A DNA stretch of 64,000 nucleotides from Cladocopium goreaui (Eukaryota > Sar > Dinophyceae > Suessiales > Symbiodiniaceae), in NCBI GenBank assembly GCA_947184155.2, contig CAMXCT020001376.1, positions 27,501 to 91,500 of the forward strand, read 5' to 3'. The position numbers and the translations under genes are program-made. Positions 45,536 through 56,108 of the stretch are shown one piece after another. Each line of letters starts with the position of its first letter. Position 1 is the stretch's first letter. A model generated the notes under the pieces. It saw only the letters and a program-made list of their open reading frames with translations. It made no database searches and was not told the DNA's origin.

Positions 45536-46162
45536 TTACCTATCTATCTGTCTGTCTGTCTGTCTGTCTATCTGTCCATCTGTCTATTTGTTTATTTGTC
45601 TATCTATGTATCTATCTATATCTATCTATCTATTTATCTAATCTAACCTAATCTAATCTAACCCAATCTAATCTTATCTTATCTAATGTTATATCATGTT
45701 ATCTTGCTTTATCTTGTTTTATCGTGTTTTATCTTATCTATCTAATCTATCTAACCTATCCAACCTAACTAATCTATCTAATCTAATCTATCTAATCTAA
45801 TCTATCTAACCTATCTATCAAACTATCTATTTAATCTATCTATTTGATCTATCTATTTAGTCTATTTATTTAATCTCCATATATTTAATCTCTTTATTCA
45901 AACTGTCTATTTAATCTGTCTATTTAATATGTTTATTCACTCTGTTTGTTTATTCTATCTATTTAATTTATCTTTTTAATCTATCTATTTAATCTTTCTT
46001 TTTAACCTAATCTAACCTAATCTAATCTCATCTCATCTAACCTAACCTAATCTAATCTATCTATATATCTAATCATCAATCTAATCTATCTATTCTATCT
46101 ATCTATCTATCTATCGATCTATCCATCTATCAATCTATCTATCTATCTATCATTCTATCAAT

Positions 46163-46193
<31 letters not shown>

Positions 46194-46290
46194 ACTATCT
46201 ATCTATCTATCTATCTATCTATGTATCTATCTTTCTTTCTATCTGTCTATCTTTCTATCTATCTATCTATCTATCTTTATATTTTATATA
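45536..46290. repeat. ATCT/CTGT tetranucleotide microsatellite
   Basis: About 750 bp of TCTATCTATCTA with interruptions TCTG, TAATC and TTTAATC. The purest block is 46090-46275. Confidence 0.95.
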
Positions 46291-46321
46291 CACACCTTGT
46301 ATCCCTATATTTACCTTAATC

Positions 46322-48118
46322 CAACCAGCAACAGACTTTAAATCGGCCATAAACCAACCCTAAATAACCACAAATAACCCTAAATAACGCTAAATTACCC
46401 TAAACCAACCATAAACCAATCCAACATAACACTCCCTAAATAAACCCAAAACCAAGCCTAAACTAAATAACCCTAAACCAACCGTAAATAAACCCAAAAC
46501 TAACCCTAAATAAACCCTAAACAAACCCTAAACAAACCCTATACCAACCCTAAATAAACCCTAAACAAACTTTAAATAAACTGTAAACCAACCCTAAATA
46601 AACCCTAACCCAACCCTTAACAAACCCTAAACCAACCCTAAACCAAGCCTAAATAAACCCTTAACCAACCCTAAATAAACCCTGGCCCAACCTTAAATAA
46701 ACCCTAAACCAACCATAAACCAAGCCTAAATAAACCCTAAACCAACCCTAAATAAATCTTAGTACCCAACCCTAAATAAACCCTAAACCAACCCTAAATA
46801 AACCCTAGCCCAACCTTAAATAAACCCTAAACCAACCATAAACCAAGCCTAAATAAACCCTAAACCAACCATAAACCAAACCTAAATAAACTCTAAACCA
46901 ACCCTAAAAAAATCTTAGCCAACCCTAAATAACCCTAAATCAACCCTAAACCAACTCTAAATAAACCCTAGCCCAACCTTAAATAAACCCTAAACCAACC
47001 ATAAACCAAGCCTTAATAAACCCTAAACCAACCATAAACCAAACCTAAATAAACTCTAAACCAACCCTAAAAAAATCTTAGCCAACCGTAAATAATCCCT
47101 AGCCCAACCTTAAATAAACCTAAACCAACCCTAAACCAATCCTAAACAAACACTAAACCAAGCCTAAATAAACCCTAAACAAACACCAAATAAACCCTAA
47201 ACCAAACCTAAACATAATCTAAATGACCCTAAAGCAACCCTAAACCAAGCCTAAATAAACACTAAATCAACCCTAAATAAACCCTAAACAAACACCAAAT
47301 AAACCCTAAACCAAACCTAAAGATAATCTAAATGACCCTAAACCAACCATAAACCAAGCCTAAATAAACCATAAACCAACCCTAAATAAATATAATAAGT
47401 CTTTGCCAACCGTAAATAACCCTAAATAAACCCTAAACCAACCGTAAATAAACCTTAGCCCAACCTTAAATAAACCTAAACCAACCCTAAACCAATCCTA
47501 AATAAACACTAAACCAACCCTACATAAACCCTGAACAAACACCAAATAAACCCTGAACAAAACCTAAAAATAATCTAAATGACCCTAAAGCAACCCTGAA
47601 CCAAGCCTAATAAACACTAAACCAACCCTAAATAAACCCTAAACAAACACCAAATAAACCCTAAACCAAACCTAAACATAATCTAAATGACCCTAAACCA
47701 AACATAAACCAAGCCTAAATAAACCCTAAACCAACCCCTAAATAACCCTAAATAGACCCTAAATAAACCCTAGCCCAACCTTAAATAAACCCTAAACCAA
47801 CCATAAACCAAGCCTAAATAAACCCTAAACCAACCCTAAATAAATCTTAGTACCCAACCCTAAATAAACCCTAAACCAACCCTCAATAAACCCTAGCCCA
47901 ACCTTAAATAAACCCGAAACCAACCATAAACCAAGCCTAAATAAACCCTAAACCAACCATAAACCAAACCTAAATAAACTCTAAACCAACCCTAAATAAA
48001 TCTTAGCCAACCCTAAATAACCCTAAATAAACCCTAAACCAACCCTAAATAGATCTTAGCCAAGCCTAAATAACCTCAAATAAACCCTAAACCAACCCTA
48101 AATAAACCTTAAACCAAC
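46322..48118. repeat. degenerate telomere-like CCCTAAA array
   Basis: Nearly 1.8 kb made of 11-bp words ACCCTAAATAA and ACCCTAAACCA with variants (ACCATAAACCA, ACCTTAAATAA, GCCTAAATAAA). CCCTAAA is the C-strand of the TTTAGGG repeat known from dinoflagellate and plant telomeres. Here it is not perfect tandem TTTAGGG but the heptamer with AT-rich spacers. Larger blocks also repeat (for example CACCAAATAAACCCTAAACC and TAATCTAAATGACCCTAAA near 47190, 47300, 47540 and 47650). That shows higher-order duplication. Confidence 0.85.
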
Positions 48119-48421: not shown

Positions 48422-48570
48422 TGTTGAATTCAGCTTGTGTGAGCACCTCTCACCTATGCCAGTTGTCGCATGACCGCAGGGACTCTATCTCCGCTCGAGA
48501 TCAAAAGAAGCCCGATCGCTTGGTGCATAGGAATGCACAGGTGTTGGTAGGTCAGCCACCAGTTTTAACA
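48422..48570 (+). repeat. 5' LTR of the copia element
   Basis: It starts TGTTGAATTCAGC and ends CCAGTTTTAACA, matching 55960-56108 along its whole length by eye. At 149 bp it is short for a copia LTR. No obvious TATA box lies inside; the nearest TATA-rich sequence is the upstream flank. Confidence 0.93.
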
Positions 48571-48571
48571 C

Positions 48572-48584
48572 TGGTAGCGGAGCC
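48572..48584 (+). promoter_or_regulatory. primer-binding site, initiator tRNA-Met-like
   Basis: TGGTAGCGGAGCC begins two bases after the LTR. It differs by two bases from the copia primer site TGGTATCAGAGCC, which pairs with the 3' end of initiator tRNA-Met. Confidence 0.7.
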
Positions 48585-48620
48585 TCCTACGGGAGGCTCC
48601 CCTAGGATAGGATTCCTAGG
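48580..48620 (+). other. two hairpins in the retrotransposon leader
   Basis: GAGCCTCC/GGAGGCTC (48580-48599, loop TACG) and CCTAGGA/TCCTAGG (48601-48620) are adjacent perfect inverted repeats between the primer site and the gag ATG. Possible roles are RNA dimerisation or packaging, or translation control. That is inference. Confidence 0.6.
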
Positions 48621-48637
48621 TGACTTGTGTGAGCGCC

Positions 48638-50053
48638 ATGGCTGGTGCATCTCTGCCGTCTGACCCTGCGTCAGGCAAAGTTTTCTCTGGCGAGAATGAG
48701 GATCCACTGGAGTATAAAAGATGGAAGACATGGGTATCCAACAAGTTGATGACACTGGATTCAAAAGTTCCCAAAGAGGCTCGTGGAGCTTACGTATACA
48801 CCCTGCTGGCCGGTAAGGCCCTCGACTGCATAGAACACTTGGATCCTAGCGAGTATCAGAAGGTTGACGGCGAGAAGACCCTGTTTGATCTTCTCGATGC
48901 CAGGTTTCCACAAAAGGACTCCTCCGATGAAATGAGTGAAACACTCACCACTGTGTTTGGTTTACGCGCAACTGAAGGTGAATCATTGAAAGTCTGGATT
49001 TCTAGAGCTGGCGAGATGTTTGACCGATGCAAGAGAAAGTGTCAGGTCGATTTTCCAGATGAGGCTCGTGGGTGGCTCATTCTGAATCGCTCAGGTTTGA
49101 GTGACGAACAAAGTGCGGTAGTTTTAGCCCGCAGTGGAGGAAGTCTGAAACGTGATGCCATAGGCAGGGCCATGAGGTCGTGCTATCCAGATTTTACTGT
49201 ACCAAAGCGGAAGAGTTTTGGACTCAGTCTTGTGGAAGCTGAGGAAGATCTGGACACCATCGAAGAGGACGACGACACACTGTCTCATGAGGTGGAGGCC
49301 TTTTTGGCCGAACATGGTGAGGTTCCTGCCGAAGAGCCTTCTGAAGTTTTTGAGGAGACGGAGGTGGCAGAAGCACTAGCCGTTTCTTGGAAAGACAAGC
49401 GCCGTGAGTTAGGGCGTTTGCAAAAGAATCGACGTTTTGGTGCTGCTTCTGATCTCCGAAAGAGCTATCGCGTGGAGATCGAAGAGCTCAAGCGCAAAAC
49501 GCGCTGCCATAAGTGCCAACAAGTTGGACATTGGTCCAGGGAATGCAAGCAGCCTGCAAAAGGAAAGGGCAAAGGTTCCAAATCTGGGTCCAGTTCAAAG
49601 GGTTCCGACTCAGGGGTAGCACTGGTTGAGCAGTTTTCGGAGACATTTGTTGCTACGGTGGCTGACGAAAAGTTCTCTGGCCTCAGCATGTCGCAATGGC
49701 TGAGGAATCGACGCGCTACAAAGTCTGAGCAATCAGTGCCTGCGACATCAACTGAGGTGTTCCTGGTCAGTTCACCAGGATATGGTGTGATCGATTCTGG
49801 ATGTGGTCGCACAATTGTGGGACAAGAGACGTTGTCAGATTTCACGAAGCTCTGGAAGTCTCGTGGCATCCCAGTACCTGAGCCTTTTGCTGAGGTCAAT
49901 CATTTTAAGTTTGGAAACGGCCAGCGTGAAACCACTGAATTGGCAGTCAAACTGCCGGTAGTGATCTCTGGAAAGACTGGAAGTATCAAGGCAGCCATTG
50001 TCAAGGGGGCTGCTCCGTTACTGATTTCACGCCGGGCTCTTCAGACTTTATAA
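48638..50053 (+). CDS. copia Gag and aspartic protease
   Basis: I take ATG 48638 as start (GAGCGCCATGG context, MAGASLPSDPASGKVFSG); upstream in-frame codons lack an ATG. That gives 471 residues to TAA at 50051-50053. The N-terminal two thirds look like a copia gag (EYKRWKTWVSNKLMTLD near the start, then LFDLLDARFP). A CCHC zinc knuckle lies at residues 290-303 (CHKCQQVGHWSREC), followed by a Lys/Ser-rich linker. The protease signature is VIDSGCGRTIVG with the catalytic Asp at residue 386. The protein ends LISRRALQTL. In related elements the frame simply continues into pol. Here a TAA intervenes and the same frame resumes with AVIDFGKNEM. Confidence 0.9.
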   Translation: MAGASLPSDPASGKVFSGENEDPLEYKRWKTWVSNKLMTLDSKVPKEARGAYVYTLLAGKALDCIEHLDPSEYQKVDGEKTLFDLLDARFPQKDSSDEMSETLTTVFGLRATEGESLKVWISRAGEMFDRCKRKCQVDFPDEARGWLILNRSGLSDEQSAVVLARSGGSLKRDAIGRAMRSCYPDFTVPKRKSFGLSLVEAEEDLDTIEEDDDTLSHEVEAFLAEHGEVPAEEPSEVFEETEVAEALAVSWKDKRRELGRLQKNRRFGAASDLRKSYRVEIEELKRKTRCHKCQQVGHWSRECKQPAKGKGKGSKSGSSSKGSDSGVALVEQFSETFVATVADEKFSGLSMSQWLRNRRATKSEQSVPATSTEVFLVSSPGYGVIDSGCGRTIVGQETLSDFTKLWKSRGIPVPEPFAEVNHFKFGNGQRETTELAVKLPVVISGKTGSIKAAIVKGAAPLLISRRALQTL

Positions 50054-52546
50054 GCTGTGATTGATTTTGGGAAGAACGAGATGTCACTTTTTCCAGAACG
50101 TTTGACTGTTCCTCTGTTATCGAATGAAGCCGGGCAGTATGTCATTGATGTTTTGGGTGGCATTTCCAACCCTGCTCCTGATGCGACTGAAGATTTCTCT
50201 GAAGTCATGCTGCATGAGAAGGTTTCCGTGCCCAAGCAAGAGACATGTCCTGCCAGTCCCACACAGTCATCCGCAGCCATGGATGTGCACTCCGCTGACC
50301 CAGGAGTTTCAGCTGACTTGCAAGTTTGGTCTAGGGCTGATTCATACCTCAGTCACACACTCACCACTGGTAGTCAAGGTCCCAACTGGCAATCTATAAG
50401 ACGACGTAGAGTCATGAATGCTGACAACAATGAAGTTCTGTTTGATGAATGGATTCAACCTCACCACAAGAAATCAAGATATCGTCATCCAATACCTCAA
50501 GAAGTTTTTCATGTGGTCACTGAGTTTCATTTCATCCCGCAGGAGACAGTAGCGACAATTGAGAGTCTGCCTGCCCATTGCCAGCGTCAGTTAGATGCCC
50601 AAATCCGAAGTTCACCAACTGAGGTCAGATCCAGTGTTGATGATAAACCTTTCTTAGTTGCCGAAGTTTTCAGCCCACCGCGTTTTGCCCCGTTGGTTGA
50701 AGGAGTGGGCGGTTCTTGCCGTTCATATGATCTGACCACAGGCTTTGATTTTACCAAAGCAGAGGTGAGAGAACAAGTGGCTGATGAGCTCAAGCGTGCA
50801 CCACCAGATCTGCTTGTGCTCAGCCCACCGTGCACTGACGAAGGTGGATGGTTCAACCTTAATGCCTGCACTATGGATCCCAATGAGTATCTCCGTAGAG
50901 TTCGGCGTAGCCGTTTGTTCATCAGGTTCTGTTGCAAATTGTTTGAACAACAGGTGCAAGCTGGAGGTAGGGCCATTTTTGAGCATCCGAAGGGTTCCAA
51001 GCTGTGGACCTACCCTGAGGTCCGTGCACTCGTGAATGAACATCATGTGTTGTCATGTCACATGTGTCGTTTTGGGTTACGCATCCCCGGTAGTGATAAG
51101 TTGATTCGTAAGGCCACTCCCTTACTTGTCACCCATGAGAACATGAGGGTTTTAGCCAAGGAGTGTCCAGGCTCCAAACAACCGAAACATGAGTGTCATC
51201 AGACCATTGCAGGGTCAGATCCAGCTGTGGGCCGAATCAGTACTTTTGCCGGGAAATACACACCCAATTTTGTGGAATCCGTGATGGACACGGTGCCTCG
51301 ATACATGGAACTGAAGCAGCAGTGTCTTGCCGTGTGTTCTCCGTGGTCCAGCAAGCAGCAGGACGAAGTTCTTGCAGCCAAGCCCGATCTGTCAGCCGAC
51401 AAGAGTGATGAGGATTTGATGAAGGTGATTGACAAGGTCCATAGGAACTTAGGTCATCCTCCCACGCATGATCTTGTTAGGATTTTCAAGCATGCCAAGG
51501 CCTCAGATCGCGCGATCCAACTGGCTCAGAAGCACAAGTGCAATTTTTGCCAAGCTCAGATCAAGCCACACGTGCCGCTGCCTGCCAAGAGTTCCAGACC
51601 ACAGGAATTCAATCAAGTGGTTGGCATTGATGTAAAAAACTTGAATGGTTGGTCCCCCAACATGAAGGTTAAGGCCCTCAACATCGTTGATCAACCTAGC
51701 TGTTATCAACTCATGATCCCCTTCTATGAGCGGGAAACCTCCGATGTTTTGCGCAGAGAGTTTGCCAATCACTGGGTCCGAATTTTTGGTTCTCCAAAGG
51801 AGGTCATTGTGGATCAGGCACAGACCAATTTGGGCGAACCTTTCCAGAGCTACCTGGAGTCGTTGGGGACTCATGTACATCAAATTGCTGGCGAAGCACA
51901 TTGGCAGTTGGGGCGTACAGAATCTCATGGTGGTTGGTTTTCCAGGGTTTTGGATCGTACCATGTCAGAGTTCATGCCACACAACAAGGAACAATGGGAA
52001 GATTGTGTAACCCATAGCCATGTGAAGAACACCATGATCCAATCCTACGGATATACACCACATCAGCATGTGTTTGGGAAAAATTCTGACATACCTTCCG
52101 ATCTCATGAACGAGCCACTTCATGTCATACCAGCCACACTTGGTTTGTCCGATGAAGCTGTAGCCCGATCACAGGCCATACGTGCTGCAGCCCGTCAAGC
52201 TGTTTTGCAGACTCAAGATGACCAAGCGCTTAGGCGTGCTTTTTCAGCCAGACCACGCCTGCAACAGCAATTTGTGCCTGGTGACTTGATTGCGTACTGG
52301 AGAGCCCAAAAGTATCAGCAAGGTAAGGTTCAGCTAGGAGGTCAATGGTATGGTACAGCAGTTGTCATTGGTAGCATTGGCAAGAACTATATAGTAGCCC
52401 ATCGCCGACAGATCTTCCGTGTAGCACCCGAGCAAATGAGACCAGCAACCACTGAAGAAAAGACTATGGTTACTACACCACAAACTGAGTTGTTGGGGGT
52501 AAAAGATATGTTGGAAGGGGTACTTTTAAGAGTAGCCAATACATAG
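50054..52546 (+). CDS. copia Pol part 1: methyltransferase-like domain and integrase
   Basis: It is in the same frame as gag-protease, directly after the TAA. Numbering is from 50057. Residues 200-320 resemble a cytosine-C5 methyltransferase-type Rossmann domain: LVAEVFSPPRFAPL, DLTTGFDF, PDLLVLSPPCT (Cys 259) and FEHPKGSKLW. Residues 462-498 form the integrase HHCC zinc finger (VHRNLGH then CNFC). The integrase core has D525 (VVGIDVKN), D586 (VIVDQAQTN) and E622 (LGRTESHGG), a perfect D,D35E spacing. The C-terminal part includes a GDLIAYWRAQKYQ motif like that after copia integrases. The frame ends at TAG 52544-52546. The RT lies in another frame. Confidence 0.88.
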   Translation, partial: AVIDFGKNEMSLFPERLTVPLLSNEAGQYVIDVLGGISNPAPDATEDFSEVMLHEKVSVPKQETCPASPTQSSAAMDVHSADPGVSADLQVWSRADSYLSHTLTTGSQGPNWQSIRRRRVMNADNNEVLFDEWIQPHHKKSRYRHPIPQEVFHVVTEFHFIPQETVATIESLPAHCQRQLDAQIRSSPTEVRSSVDDKPFLVAEVFSPPRFAPLVEGVGGSCRSYDLTTGFDFTKAEVREQVADELKRAPPDLLVLSPPCTDEGGWFNLNACTMDPNEYLRRVRRSRLFIRFCCKLFEQQVQAGGRAIFEHPKGSKLWTYPEVRALVNEHHVLSCHMCRFGLRIPGSDKLIRKATPLLVTHENMRVLAKECPGSKQPKHECHQTIAGSDPAVGRISTFAGKYTPNFVESVMDTVPRYMELKQQCLAVCSPWSSKQQDEVLAAKPDLSADKSDEDLMKVIDKVHRNLGHPPTHDLVRIFKHAKASDRAIQLAQKHKCNFCQAQIKPHVPLPAKSSRPQEFNQVVGIDVKNLNGWSPNMKVKALNIVDQPSCYQLMIPFYERETSDVLRREFANHWVRIFGSPKEVIVDQAQTNLGEPFQSYLESLGTHVHQIAGEAHWQLGRTESHGGWFSRVLDRTMSEFMPHNKEQWEDCVTHSHVKNTMIQSYGYTPHQHVFGKNSDIPSDLMNEPLHVIPATLGLSDEAVARSQAIRAAARQAVLQTQDDQALRRAFSARPRLQQQFVPGDLIAYWRAQKYQQGKVQLGGQWYGTAVVIGSIGKNYIVAHRRQIFRVAPEQMRPATTEEKTMVTTPQTELLGVKDMLEGVLLRVANT

Positions 52547-54945
52547 ACCTAGTTCCAGGGTTGTATCCACCAATGGCATCCGGTCCCGCAGATCAGAGTC
52601 AGCCCACTGAAAGCCCAGAGGTTGCGTCAGAACCTTCCATACCGGCCAATGGTGATGCTGATGCGTCCATGGAACCAGTTTCAGGGTCCACTGTGAATCC
52701 CAAAGCTAGGTCTCTAAGCTCCGAGGAGCATGATGAACCAGACCAGTTCCCGGTGAATCCACCACCTGATGACGTCACTGTTGAAGATCCCAACATGACT
52801 GGTTCTTCAGATTCGGCATCTAGCTATGGCCCTTTGCGACGTGTTCCATCAAAAAATGGACCTGCTGCTTTGTACAGGCCGCCAAGTATGAGGGAACAGG
52901 ACTTCTTGGACATGATGAAGGAAGTTGTTCCTAAGTTGATTGAACATGCCACGAATCCAGCAAATGCATCAGCCTCACCTGCTCAGAGTTCCTCACCTAG
53001 GGTAGGAGACCAGCACAAGCGTGTCCTTGAAGATTCCGATGCTGTTGAACCACCCAGCAACAAGCCCCGCATCGATGCCGTGTGCGAGGTGTTGTCTGTT
53101 GAAGACGTGACTGAGTTGTGCAGGCAGCTGGAAGATCCCAAGGTCACCACTGAGTGTTTGTTAGCCAACTATCTCCAAAAGAAAACCAGTAAAGAACTGC
53201 ACCACAGTCATAACCATCCTGATTTGCAAAGCCTGATCGATGAATCCAAAAGAGCTGAATGGAACACCATTGTCGAAAAACATGCCGTCAAAGTCCACTA
53301 TGGCAAACGTGCCGCCCAACTCTTGACACGCTATCCAGACCGTTTCATCGGCAGTAGGTTTGTGATCACTCGAAAGCCTATGGAAGAAAATCAGCCTATT
53401 GTAGAAGATGATTCCAGTACGTATCGAGTCAAGAGCCGATGGTGTCTTCAGGGTCACCTGGACCCGGATCTCGACAAGAAGGTTCAAGATGGTTTGCTGC
53501 AGTCGCCAACTTTGAGTCAAACAGGTCGCATGTTGTTGATGCAACTCATAGCCACCCACAAATGGGATTTGCAGTTAGGGGATATCAAAGGTGCATTTCT
53601 GGAAGCTGGCGAGCTGCCAGCAAAGTTTAGACCTCTGTTTGCAAGACAGCCTCCAGGAGGCATTCCGGGCGTGCCACCTGACGCCATTTTGGAAGTCGTG
53701 GGAAACGTCTATGGACAAAACGGTGCTCCTTTGGCGTGGCATCGTACTTTTGATTCCGAAGCTGTGACCGTTGGTTGGGAGCGATCCAAGTTTGACCCTT
53801 GTCTTTACTTTCTCAGGGAGCAAAACAAGTTGGTTGGTGTTATGGGGGTACATGTGGATGATACTGCACTTGGAGGCCAAGGAGAGCGTTTCCAACAAGC
53901 CGTGGCAGCTCTACGGGCTAGATTCCCATATAGGAAGTGGCGAGTCAATGAGGGAGAATTTTGTGGTGCTTATTATGTTCAACATAAGAAAACCAAAGTG
54001 ATTGAGATGTCTCAGAAGCTGTTTGCTGAAAGACTTAAGCCAGCCACAATTCCCAAGAGTGCCTCGCCTGACGACCTGTTGACAGAGTCTCAAATCCGTG
54101 TTTTGCGAGCCATCAACGGCTCTCTCAACTGGCTAGCCAGTCAGTCGCGACCAGACTTGGCAGTACAGACCAGCCTCAGCCAGCAAGCTTTTCCTGCACC
54201 TAGGATTAGGCATTTGCGCGATGCAAACAACGCAATTCGTCGAGCCAAGATGCATAAAGAGCTTTCCATTCGGTTTGAATCCATTTCCCCTGAAAATCTT
54301 TGTGTGTGTTGCCATTCAGATGCTGCTTTTGCCAATAGAGGTTCCCATACTCAAGCCGGTTACATATTGGCTTTTGTAGATAAGCGTATGCACAACGGAG
54401 AGATTTCACCATGGACACCAGCCATTTGGAAGAGCTACAAGTTGCCTAGGGCTGTCAGCTCAACACTAAGCGGGGAAGCTCAAGCACTTGCAACTGCATC
54501 TGGATCGGTTGAATGGTTAAATCTACTTTTAAGTGAAGCTCTTGACGGAAGCGTCATCCCCAGCATGTGCCGATCCTTGTTGGCCAAGAGACCAGCCATT
54601 TTAGCCACCGACTGTAAGTCTTTGTATGATCATTTAATATCCCCTTCATCGCCCACTGCAGTGGATGACCGTAGGACCAGTATCGATATTGTGATCATCA
54701 GAGAGTCCATCAAGCTGTTGTCTGCACAAATTCGTTGGCTTCCAACAAATCGCATGATAGCTGATGGCCTTACCAAGGATAAGATGGAGCCTAGCGATCT
54801 GCTTCGCTCATGCGTTCGTGCTGCATCGTATCAGATTTCTCCCGAAGACCATGTCCTGGCGCAGCAAGCAGCTGAACGTGCCTTTCGAGCGCAAAACCGT
54901 GAGAAGAGTGCCCAGAAAGCAGTTGAGACGTCTGGGGGAAACTGA
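52530..54945 (+). CDS. copia Pol part 2: reverse transcriptase and RNase H
   Basis: The frame is open upstream of the first ATG (52573) through SSQYIDLVPGLYPP, so it was once continuous with integrase. Numbering from 52561. After a disordered Ser/Pro-rich linker the RT shows WCLQGHLDPDL, then GDIKGAFLEAGE (D341), then the GVHVDDTALGG active site (D433, D434). RNase H follows with CHSDAAFANRG (D587), TLSGEAQALA (E639), LATDCKSLYDH (D684) and NRMIADGLTK (D735). All catalytic acids are present. The C-terminal tail is basic. The stop is at 54943-54945. Confidence 0.92.
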
Positions 54946-55348
54946 CTTCTCAAAGGGGTAAGATGTATCACTCTGACTTCTTCCATAATGATTGCTAGGT
55001 ATAATCTGCAGATGTCTTGAGGGTCAGTCTTTAGAGTGCACAGCATCCTGCCGAGAGCCTTTCGATCAGTGGAACATGTCCAAATCTCGTTTCATGATAA
55101 TTAATAAGGTCACTTAAGCTAGTGACATAAATAAGTTTATTTCCGCTGAGGATGTGAGCAGTTGTGCATGTTTGGTGCTTGGGAGCCCCTTTTTCTCGTG
55201 TTTATCCATTGTAGGAGGTGCACCGAAGCTTGACCTAGCTTCTCACCACCCTTTTTGCTCATTTCCTTCGGGCCTTTTCGTCAATCCAGCCACCGGAGAA
55301 TCCGTGGATATCTGGTCCGCATCAGAGTTTGCGCCCAGCTCTGGAGCC
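54946..55348 (+). other. copia pol-to-accessory spacer with splice-like site
   Basis: It contains a pyrimidine-rich run TTTTTCTCGTGTTTATCCATTGTAG ending at about 55213, followed by G. This looks like a good dinoflagellate 3' splice site, usable for cis-splicing or for spliced-leader trans-splicing to make a separate mRNA for the ORF that follows. That use is inference. Confidence 0.45.
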
Positions 55349-55816
55349 ATGACAGATGGAGCTAAGCGTCGTGAAGATGCTTTGATGCCTCAAGATGCCA
55401 AGCGATTGATGAAGCCCAAGGCCATGGCTGCAAGCTCAGCAGCTCCATGCACAGCCTACTCAGGCACCATGGGCACTGTGCCCTTTGTGAACGCCGTGAG
55501 CCTTCCTGACATTGAGCCTGAGGTTGGTATCAAGCTGCCACCTTTTCCACCAGGTGTCACGGACGTAGCCACATGGGGAGAGACTTTGATTGAGTTTGGC
55601 CAGTACAAGAATGCAACGATGAGCTATTTTGATCTGGTCTTGTCGACAGATGATCGCGCAGTGAGCTACGTGAAGTGGTGCAAGTCTCGTGCCAGTTCCT
55701 CTTCCGGCCAGCTCAAGGACCTGTGTGATTTTCTGAGCCATCATTTTGCTGATGAGGGTGCGAATCAGGGTCCACTGATTCCCGGCACCACCATGACCCG
55801 TCGTTTGAAGAAGTGA
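55349..55816 (+). CDS. accessory ORF of the copia element, ExoX-C-like motif
   Basis: The frame is open from 55154 (220 codons), but I prefer ATG 55349 (MTDGAKRREDALMPQDAK), giving 155 residues, because the upstream part is Cys/Ser/Phe-rich and poor. After LPPFPPGVTDVATWGETL comes EFGQYKNATMSYFDLVL, then AVSYVKWCKSR. The spacing of FG.YK...(S/T)Y..V to YVKW matches the small C-terminal domain of exodeoxyribonuclease X-like proteins (GKYKGKT..EV......YV.W). I recall similar short ORFs in dinoflagellate transcripts. It ends KK and TGA, about 140 bp before the 3' LTR. A nucleic-acid role for the element is inference. It could also be a captured host domain. Confidence 0.6.
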   Translation: MTDGAKRREDALMPQDAKRLMKPKAMAASSAAPCTAYSGTMGTVPFVNAVSLPDIEPEVGIKLPPFPPGVTDVATWGETLIEFGQYKNATMSYFDLVLSTDDRAVSYVKWCKSRASSSSGQLKDLCDFLSHHFADEGANQGPLIPGTTMTRRLKK

Positions 55817-55916
55817 TCTCCAGAGATCGTTTTTGCATGACTTTGTGAGAGCAGTTTTGTATCAAGCTGTGTGAGATCTGCGGGGTGACGCAGATTTGAA
55901 TTTCCATACACAACAC

Positions 55917-55959
55917 TGGAGAAAACAGAAGATGATTTATATAAAAGAGTTATTACCAG
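55917..55959 (+). promoter_or_regulatory. purine-rich tract before the 3' LTR
   Basis: GGAGAAAACAGAAGATGA (55917-55934) and AAAAGAG (55943-55949) precede the LTR. Either may be the polypurine primer for plus-strand synthesis. Neither directly abuts the LTR, because TTATTACCAG lies between. Confidence 0.45.
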
Positions 55960-56108
55960 TGTTGAATTCAGCTTGTGTGAGCACCTCTCACCTATGCCAG
56001 TTGTCGCATGACCGCAGGGACTCTATCTCCGCTCGAGATCAAAAGAAGCCCGATCGCTTGGTGCATAGGAATGCACAGGTGTTGGTAGGTCAGCCACCAG
56101 TTTTAACA
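55960..56108 (+). repeat. 3' LTR of the copia element
   Basis: It matches the 5' LTR over all 149 bases by eye, beginning TGTTGAATTCAGC and ending GTTTTAACA. Confidence 0.93.

Follow-up and report, generated by a model that had tools for sequence, protein, structure and literature searches.

The closest described systems are retrotransposons that encode their own DNA methyltransferases (DNMTs). The sections of de Mendoza et al. 2018 (PMC5890265) drawn on here, in which DNMTs were surveyed with the Pfam profile PF00145, describe them in long interspersed nuclear element (LINE) and DIRS retrotransposons of Symbiodinium and in a charophyte Gypsy element, and report that the DNMT domains of SymbioDIRS methylate CG in yeast. 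The same sections state that Copia, the most abundant superfamily in Symbiodinium, "lacks any DNMT domain". We analyzed a 64,000-nucleotide window of contig CAMXCT020001376.1 from Cladocopium goreaui, a Symbiodiniaceae dinoflagellate, in which a copia-type long terminal repeat (LTR) retrotransposon at 48422-56108 harbors a C5-methyltransferase-like (MT) region. This MT domain is real, is kept by selection, resembles C5 methyltransferases and adds a new case to a known type of capture. We lean toward regarding it as a putatively catalytic DNA cytosine-C5 methyltransferase, minimal and divergent, that was captured and became part of the copia polyprotein. A preliminary description of this DNA had called such capture by dinoflagellate retrotransposons known; this holds for LINE and DIRS elements, and for a charophyte Gypsy element, whereas for Symbiodinium Copia the quoted sentence says the opposite, and the MT domain contradicts it. 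The reason offered here is that the published survey searched with PF00145, which is blind to the domain. A 2025 article (PMC12344493) places DNMT3 in "LTR Copia and DIRS" in the part cited here, with reference to the 2018 study above, in which the LTR element is Gypsy. An MT-type domain in copia goes unmentioned in the consulted parts of a 2024 review (PMC11453091) and of a survey of DNMTs in microeukaryotes from 2023 (PMC9998398), and no title or abstract reporting one was among those listed for the literature covered, which leaves out most subscription journals and bioRxiv.

The motifs EVFSPPRFAPL, DLTTGFDF, PDLLVLSPPCT and FEHPKGSKLW lie, as first described, in the second open reading frame (ORF) of the element (50057-52546, 829 aa), which comprises the MT region and the integrase. 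The extra region, put initially at about 120 residues, spans about 213 (50657-51295) according to the homologue profile and the predicted model. That model is of the class I Rossmann type and belongs to the C5-methyltransferase fold, so that the structure prediction proposed as a check came out in favor of a methyltransferase. All 50 VIA matches listed for a first model were C5-cytosine methyltransferases, as were 49 of the 50 listed for a second, the remaining one being titled "putative DNA modification methyltransferase". The structural matches listed include DNMT3, M.HhaI, DNMT1 and other DNA enzymes, as well as gp15 of Lactococcus phage P087. These matches bear on the idea that the domain is an RNA methyltransferase, placing 5-methylcytosine in element RNA or in the transfer RNA (tRNA) primer, much like DNMT2, which acts on tRNA. 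The C5 fold includes the RNA-modifying DNMT2, and LTR retrotransposons package RNA together with a tRNA primer. RNA methylation has also been raised for LINE DNMTs (PMC5890265, in the sections cited). The structural matches listed are DNA enzymes, although 50 rows cannot exclude an RNA role, and the absence of DNMT2 by name among the 50 VIA matches listed for either model excludes nothing. We consider an RNA substrate rather improbable.

Sequence searches placed the domain outside established profiles. Pfam, NCBIfam and PHROGs returned nothing significant with the window domain; PF00145 matched neither it nor any of 19 diverse members (0/19) at E ≤ 10, and a PDB sequence search with the single MT sequence gave no match. 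The domain is not filed under PF00145 because its cofactor loop and motif VIII deviate, though each is well conserved. When the PDB was searched with the profile of alignment A2 (the window plus 18 of 23 other pieces; P0134, P0140 with its glycine-rich YGRGGL, P0146, P0152 and P0160 were excluded), DNMT1 chains appeared at E 1.2-1.9 next to an aldolase at 1.1, none of them significant. Profile-profile comparison, in which E-values refer to single pairs, gave a score of 63.4 (E 5.6e-9) between the family and eight small phage C5 methylases, across the ENP..W and KKPT motifs; the maximum among 80 column-shuffled versions was 24.7. The best local match of the 19-member alignment to these phage enzymes was the PDLI-SPPC-FS stretch (E 9.6e-7). 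Against 41 proteins of phage P087 (from 77 listed coding regions), the annotated methyltransferase ranked first at 31.6, followed by 21.2. Five Dcm-type enzymes scored 28.7 with PC and ENV in register (maximum of 40 shuffles, 18.7), and E. coli Dam, itself compared without shuffles, scored 12.9, below the best shuffles against other targets. The methyltransferase profile match sought for the domain is thus absent for PF00145, present for phage C5 methylases and weak for Dcm-type enzymes. A tblastn search of phages with the related polyprotein P0076 returned one match (E 5) outside the MT part, and peptide patterns of one family member found no viral relative.

A search with residues 180-460 returned 55 homologues at E ≤ 0.001, with identity down to 27%. 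When the most distant of these served as query, 130 were returned, of which the best 120 were used; 119 of them were new. Together with the window's protein and the first 55, these 119 form a set of 175 proteins, all covered by an iterated profile of the MT domain and divided into group A (52 proteins, the window type) and group B (123). A profile search restricted to short proteins gave 621 matches, of which the best 120 were listed. Organism names were given for three listed homologues, P0002 (C. goreaui) and P0178 and P0225 (Karenia brevis); we infer that the others are dinoflagellate because copies of both groups occur in the window's genome. Such distant homologues and the many genomic copies make chance resemblance very unlikely.

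Motif equivalence with known enzymes was assigned from profile alignment and secondary-structure position. Since homologues were selected by similarity, the conservation figures are partly a matter of construction; each column is covered by 41-51 of the 52 group A rows and, for the most part, by 105-123 of the 123 group B rows. Residues at ≥91% in both groups are E202, D224, PPC258, Q298, E308-H309-P310, W316, C336, K351, T353, C369, H380 and Y400 (numbered one lower than in the window ORF). The PPC of motif IV is found in 50/50 group A rows and 99% of the 123 in group B, and E, H and P of the EHP motif are each at 100% of their columns (over 49 homologues of group A and 123 of group B). Cys 259 (codon 50831-50833), the cysteine of SPPC, aligns with the PC of Dcm and phage enzymes, which fits its reading as candidate nucleophile in a motif IV-like sequence. 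Equivalents of this Cys, the motif VI Glu, Asp 225 and Lys 352 occur in 53/53 genomic copies, a count of domains uninterrupted over at least 195 residues that excludes shorter or broken ones; in Lys-x-Thr, K is found in 53/53 and T in 52/53. At the level of aligned positions, the proposed reading of the Cys and ENV-like motifs holds for Cys and Glu; in motif VI the Glu is invariant, with His-Pro in place of Asn-Val. Three further residues, Cys, Cys and His at domain positions 137, 170 and 181 (51065-51067, 51164-51166 and 51197-51199), are present in 53/53 copies and possibly form a metal site.

The proposed S-adenosylmethionine loop is in the right place, after beta-1, without the glycines of FxGxG. 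Both prolines and the arginine of its SPPR sequence are well conserved (100/85%, 97/91% and 100/95% in groups A/B), so we do not regard the loop as decayed. A few relatives do have a glycine-rich motif I (YGRGGL, YGGGSI or YGRGKI in P0140, P0144, P0151 and P0159; YGRGGL also in the short protein P0237), and P0140 and P0237 keep the family's Cys, Glu and Lys-x-Thr motifs. These five members may retain the ancestral cofactor loop, and they favor a methyltransferase-like mode of working. A remodeled motif I could instead serve another chemistry within the C5 fold, with a different cofactor or base. Dinoflagellate DNA is rich in 5-hydroxymethyluracil, the SPPR loop is conserved rather than decayed, and a carboxymethyl-S-adenosylmethionine enzyme of the same fold, 8yf3, is among the weak Foldseek rows (E 0.021). 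Against this, small phage C5 methylases (LFDxG) and the few family members above have a loop glycine, for which reason we favor S-adenosylmethionine ancestry and hold another chemistry to be very unlikely. 5-Hydroxymethyluracil in dinoflagellate DNA is the subject of PMC11071213, as far as the part consulted goes.

We asked how strongly the domain is constrained by codon comparison among copies in the window's genome (ratio of nonsynonymous to synonymous divergence, dN/dS). Thirty-three of 1378 MT pairs, with dS of 0.05-0.8, entered the comparison; the pairs have copies in common and are not independent of one another, and L058, L024, L027, L020 and L045 (duplicate places of longer loci) and domains under length limits were excluded. 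At dS 0.3-0.8 (MT dS for MT pairs), median dN/dS was 0.029 for MT (19 pairs), 0.051 for protease (19), 0.021 for integrase (12) and 0.142 for the linker between protease and MT (13); at dS 0.05-0.3 the medians were 0.043 (14), 0.044 (11), 0.015 (11) and 0.152 (6), respectively. The reverse transcriptase (RT), with 8 segments, yielded no usable pairs. By these medians, constraint on MT is similar to that on the neighboring enzymes, and the domain is under strong purifying selection. The suggestion that it is a relic, which the preliminary description had left open, is disfavored by this result. A functionless relic or chance resemblance would fit the window copy, whose polyprotein is interrupted twice, but not selection similar to that on the protease, nor the nine large loci, picked mostly for long frames, eight of which encode protease, MT, integrase and RT in a single frame of 1975-2243 aa (the ninth, a sister of the window copy, is interrupted). 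We give this reading almost no credence.

The MT domain is abundant in the window's own assembly (1.17 Gb, 6202 contigs). Two genome searches found at least 136 and at least 150 places, none in common, and hence at least 286 distinct ones, although two pairs lie side by side and could each be a single copy. These are minimum numbers, since scoring was confined to the best among 3497 and 4982 candidates from a first look. No MT place listed is closer than 10 kb to any of the at least 125 PF00145 places listed for the same genome. MT frames in 62 loci, a set in which some places are present twice, read protease-MT-integrase (30), MT-integrase (21), protease-MT-integrase-RT (9), protease-MT (2) or MT alone (1), with no other order, and the order protease-MT-integrase is constant in the window's lineage. 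LTR-like repeats of 127-189 nt with 99-100% identity were found in seven of the nine large loci and in neither of the other two. In group B, MT precedes RT, and an integrase-like stretch, found in 100 of 123 proteins, lies 5' of MT in 100/100. This stretch is related to the group A integrase (profile comparison, E 7.6e-7), and Pfam rve was weak there (1 of 7 scanned, E 0.064). MT stands before the integrase in three group B proteins (P0147, P0166 and P0170) and in 12 genome loci (L069-L080). The latter form a further subfamily, with frames of up to 3451 aa, longer than window-type polyproteins. An RT tree of 46 rows (15 protease-MT-integrase, 1 MT-integrase, 28 MT-RT, mostly a random draw, and 2 without MT) splits the protease-MT-integrase lineage from the others with an SH-aLRT of 97; support for the groups themselves is 71 and 59, and several branches are long. 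The tree may reflect two captures, or one gain followed by relocation or loss.

Several observations weigh against reading MT as a captured C5 methyltransferase. Foldseek searches of the PDB were borderline, with no row at ≤0.001 for the first model and one for the second, and TM-scores of the leading rows were below 0.5. Comparison by hhalign with Dcm-type enzymes was weak (probability 9%; single Dcm, E 0.03). At least 142 of the 169 rows aligned at motif I read [FY][SC]PPR there, so that FxGxG is missing in most, and motif VIII is K-x-T instead of QxRxR. At motif IV, group B mostly reads SPPCTxFS, with the canonical ending; in group A, the window's group, SPPC or CPPC is continued by TxEGGW and the FS has been lost. 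The 213 residues appear too few to include a target-recognition domain, an argument from length that applies equally to the small phage relatives. In the RVT_2 list of the genome, two strong copia loci have no MT upstream of RT (2/2; frames of 1400 and 1433 aa, no MT match at E ≤ 10 and no PPC, EHP or ENP), at a sensitivity limited enough that the protease and integrase profiles missed theirs too; MT is therefore not essential for copia as such. CpG is not specially depleted in the element (0.60) relative to the remaining window without the minisatellite (0.58). For the SymbioLINE and Klebsormidium Gypsy DNMTs no activity was seen in the yeast test, which its authors call inconclusive (PMC5890265, in the sections cited). 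A rival reading is a non-catalytic module, in which the fold is reused to bind nucleic acid, as a base-flipping reader or as a tether steering integrase to methylated DNA, and Cys and Glu are kept in the pocket. Replacement of the glycine-rich loop and of the motif VIII arginines in most members would suit such a role, as would the place of MT in the domain order: it neighbors integrase in either arrangement, preceding it in one and, with a long stretch between, following it in the other. Cys 259 and Glu 309 are nearly invariant in homologues down to ~25% identity and present in 53/53 copies, which is more than binders usually need, and we judge a purely binding role unlikely, if a serious alternative.

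We prefer the captured methyltransferase, which probably works like a PF00145 enzyme; methylation by the MT domain, still putative, is likely. Under this scheme, MT would be freed by the protease or stay joined to the integrase, and would act in the virus-like particle or in the nucleus. The target cytosine would be flipped out and its C6 attacked by Cys 259 with Glu 309 assisting, and the methyl group would pass from S-adenosylmethionine via the remodeled cofactor loop FSPPR. The element's own complementary DNA (cDNA), so marked, might come to resemble the host genome, most of which is methylated at CG (PMC5890265, in the sections cited). It becomes directly testable whether retrotransposons of dinoflagellates blend into a mostly CG-methylated host by marking their own cDNA. 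We can only tentatively go further and speculate that dinoflagellate copia elements encode catalytic enzymes of the C5 fold that form a family as yet without a name, have a re-engineered cofactor loop (FSPPR where FxGxG would stand), lie ahead of or behind integrase in two copia lineages and mark element DNA or RNA before integration, in which case self-modification would be a main strategy of dinoflagellate retrotransposons and no oddity of LINE and DIRS elements. The family is in any case a natural group of small C5-type proteins with an unusual cofactor loop and, apparently, no target-recognition domain.

Features of the window copy are collected in the table below. The element has the Ty1/copia layout: integrase, called by the family profile, lies 5' of RT, with LTRs and a CCHC gag (zinc knuckle, PF00098, E 7.8e-6), and the RT scores 37.4 bits against PF07727 (cut-off, 31.6). 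The protease occupies 49754-50050 (family protease hidden Markov model, HMM). The window's ORF has no PF00665 match in a Pfam scan, and two relatives' integrases reach that profile at E 4.5e-5 and 0.0037, below its cut-off. RNase H presumably follows RT, by position and motifs. TATA occurs on either side of the element, and since these flanks sit in AT-rich repeats, a target-site duplication is uncertain. The frame is broken twice, by a stop at 50051-50053 between protease and MT and by a shift at ~52490-52560 between integrase and RT; protease and MT share one frame in two 99% sister copies. Given its identical LTRs and interrupted frame, the window copy is young but broken: it was hit very recently, was copied in trans, or reflects an assembly error. 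C. goreaui is the source of the nearest named protein, at 99% across 86% of the query sequence. An extra ORF of 220 aa (55154-55816) lies between the pol ORF and the 3' LTR, and a related stretch occurs in eight of the nine large loci (tblastn E ≤ 0.01; L049-L056, weakest E 0.005; not L057). Just 5' of the element, at 46500-48050, is a minisatellite with an 11-bp period; GC skew is extreme, at -0.85 in 46001-48000.

Table. Coordinates of the copia element and its MT domain, in window positions
Feature	Position	Strand	Remarks
5' LTR	48422..48570	+	149 nt, TG...CA ends; 149/149 identical to 3' LTR
Likely primer-binding site, CTGGTAGCGGAGCC...	48571..48592	+	Starts directly 3' of 5' LTR; presumed likeness to the initiator-Met tRNA end
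ORF1, gag (CCHC zinc knuckle) and aspartic protease (DSG)	48620..50053	+	Stops at in-frame TAA
Protease-to-MT linker	50054..50656	+	Weakly constrained; median dN/dS 0.142 and 0.152
C5-methyltransferase-like (MT) domain, 213 aa	50657..51295	+	Homologue profile and predicted model
Motif I position, FSPPR instead of FxGxG	50669..50683	+	Loop after beta-1 in model
Asp 225 (ORF numbering), motif II position	50729..50731	+	After beta-2; 100% in both groups; 53/53 copies
SPPC, motif IV; Cys 259, candidate nucleophile	50822..50833	+	Loop after beta-4; aligns with PC of Dcm and phage enzymes
EHP, motif VI (ENV) position; Glu 309	50981..50989	+	End of beta-5
Lys-x-Thr, motif VIII (QxRxR) position	51110..51118	+	Aligns with KKPT of phage enzymes
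Integrase	51413..52219	+	Family HMM, E 1.7e-142; HMM built from same family
ORF3, reverse transcriptase	52561..54945	+	Different frame in window copy; PF07727, E 2.7e-9
3' LTR	55960..56108	+	149 nt

Compared with known systems, the copia MT is closest in setting to SymbioLINE-Dnmt and SymbioDIRS-Dnmt3, which, as described in the cited sections of PMC5890265, are likewise C5-type methyltransferases in dinoflagellate retrotransposon coding regions, under purifying selection and in many copies. Those domains differ in having a LINE or DIRS backbone, in being detectable with PF00145 and in conserving key residues; the window element, an LTR copia with no PF00145 match, falls outside their class. 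KnitGypsy-Dnmt3 of Klebsormidium nitens (same sections) shares the location within the Pol polyprotein of an LTR element and purifying selection, but belongs to Gypsy and to the green lineage and is a Dnmt3 domain with conserved key residues. DIRS elements with a Dam-like methyltransferase, also described there, are similar as retroelements with a methyltransferase and dissimilar in that the enzyme is an adenine one. In the part of PMC12477816 consulted, Ectocarpus Sola is another algal mobile element with its own DNA methyltransferase, but it is a DNA transposon whose protein combines ParB-like and N4C/N6A methyltransferase parts. DNMT3A/B, M.HhaI and Dcm, all of PF00145, have the fold in common with the copia MT, as well as the Cys of motif IV and the Glu of motif VI, whereas the copia MT lacks FxGxG, QxRxR, a target-recognition domain and a PF00145 match. 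Among known enzymes, the small C5 methylases of phages (gp15 of Lactococcus phage P087, the "putative C5 methylase" of Streptococcus phage Javan139 and kin) resemble it in size (212-268 aa for the eight used) and in their PDLI-SPPC/NPPC-x-x-[FW]S, ENP and K[PR]T motifs. Unlike the copia MT they are free-standing and keep the motif I glycine, and by eye nothing in them corresponds to Cys 137, Cys 170 and His 181 (domain numbering), which are invariant in the copia family.
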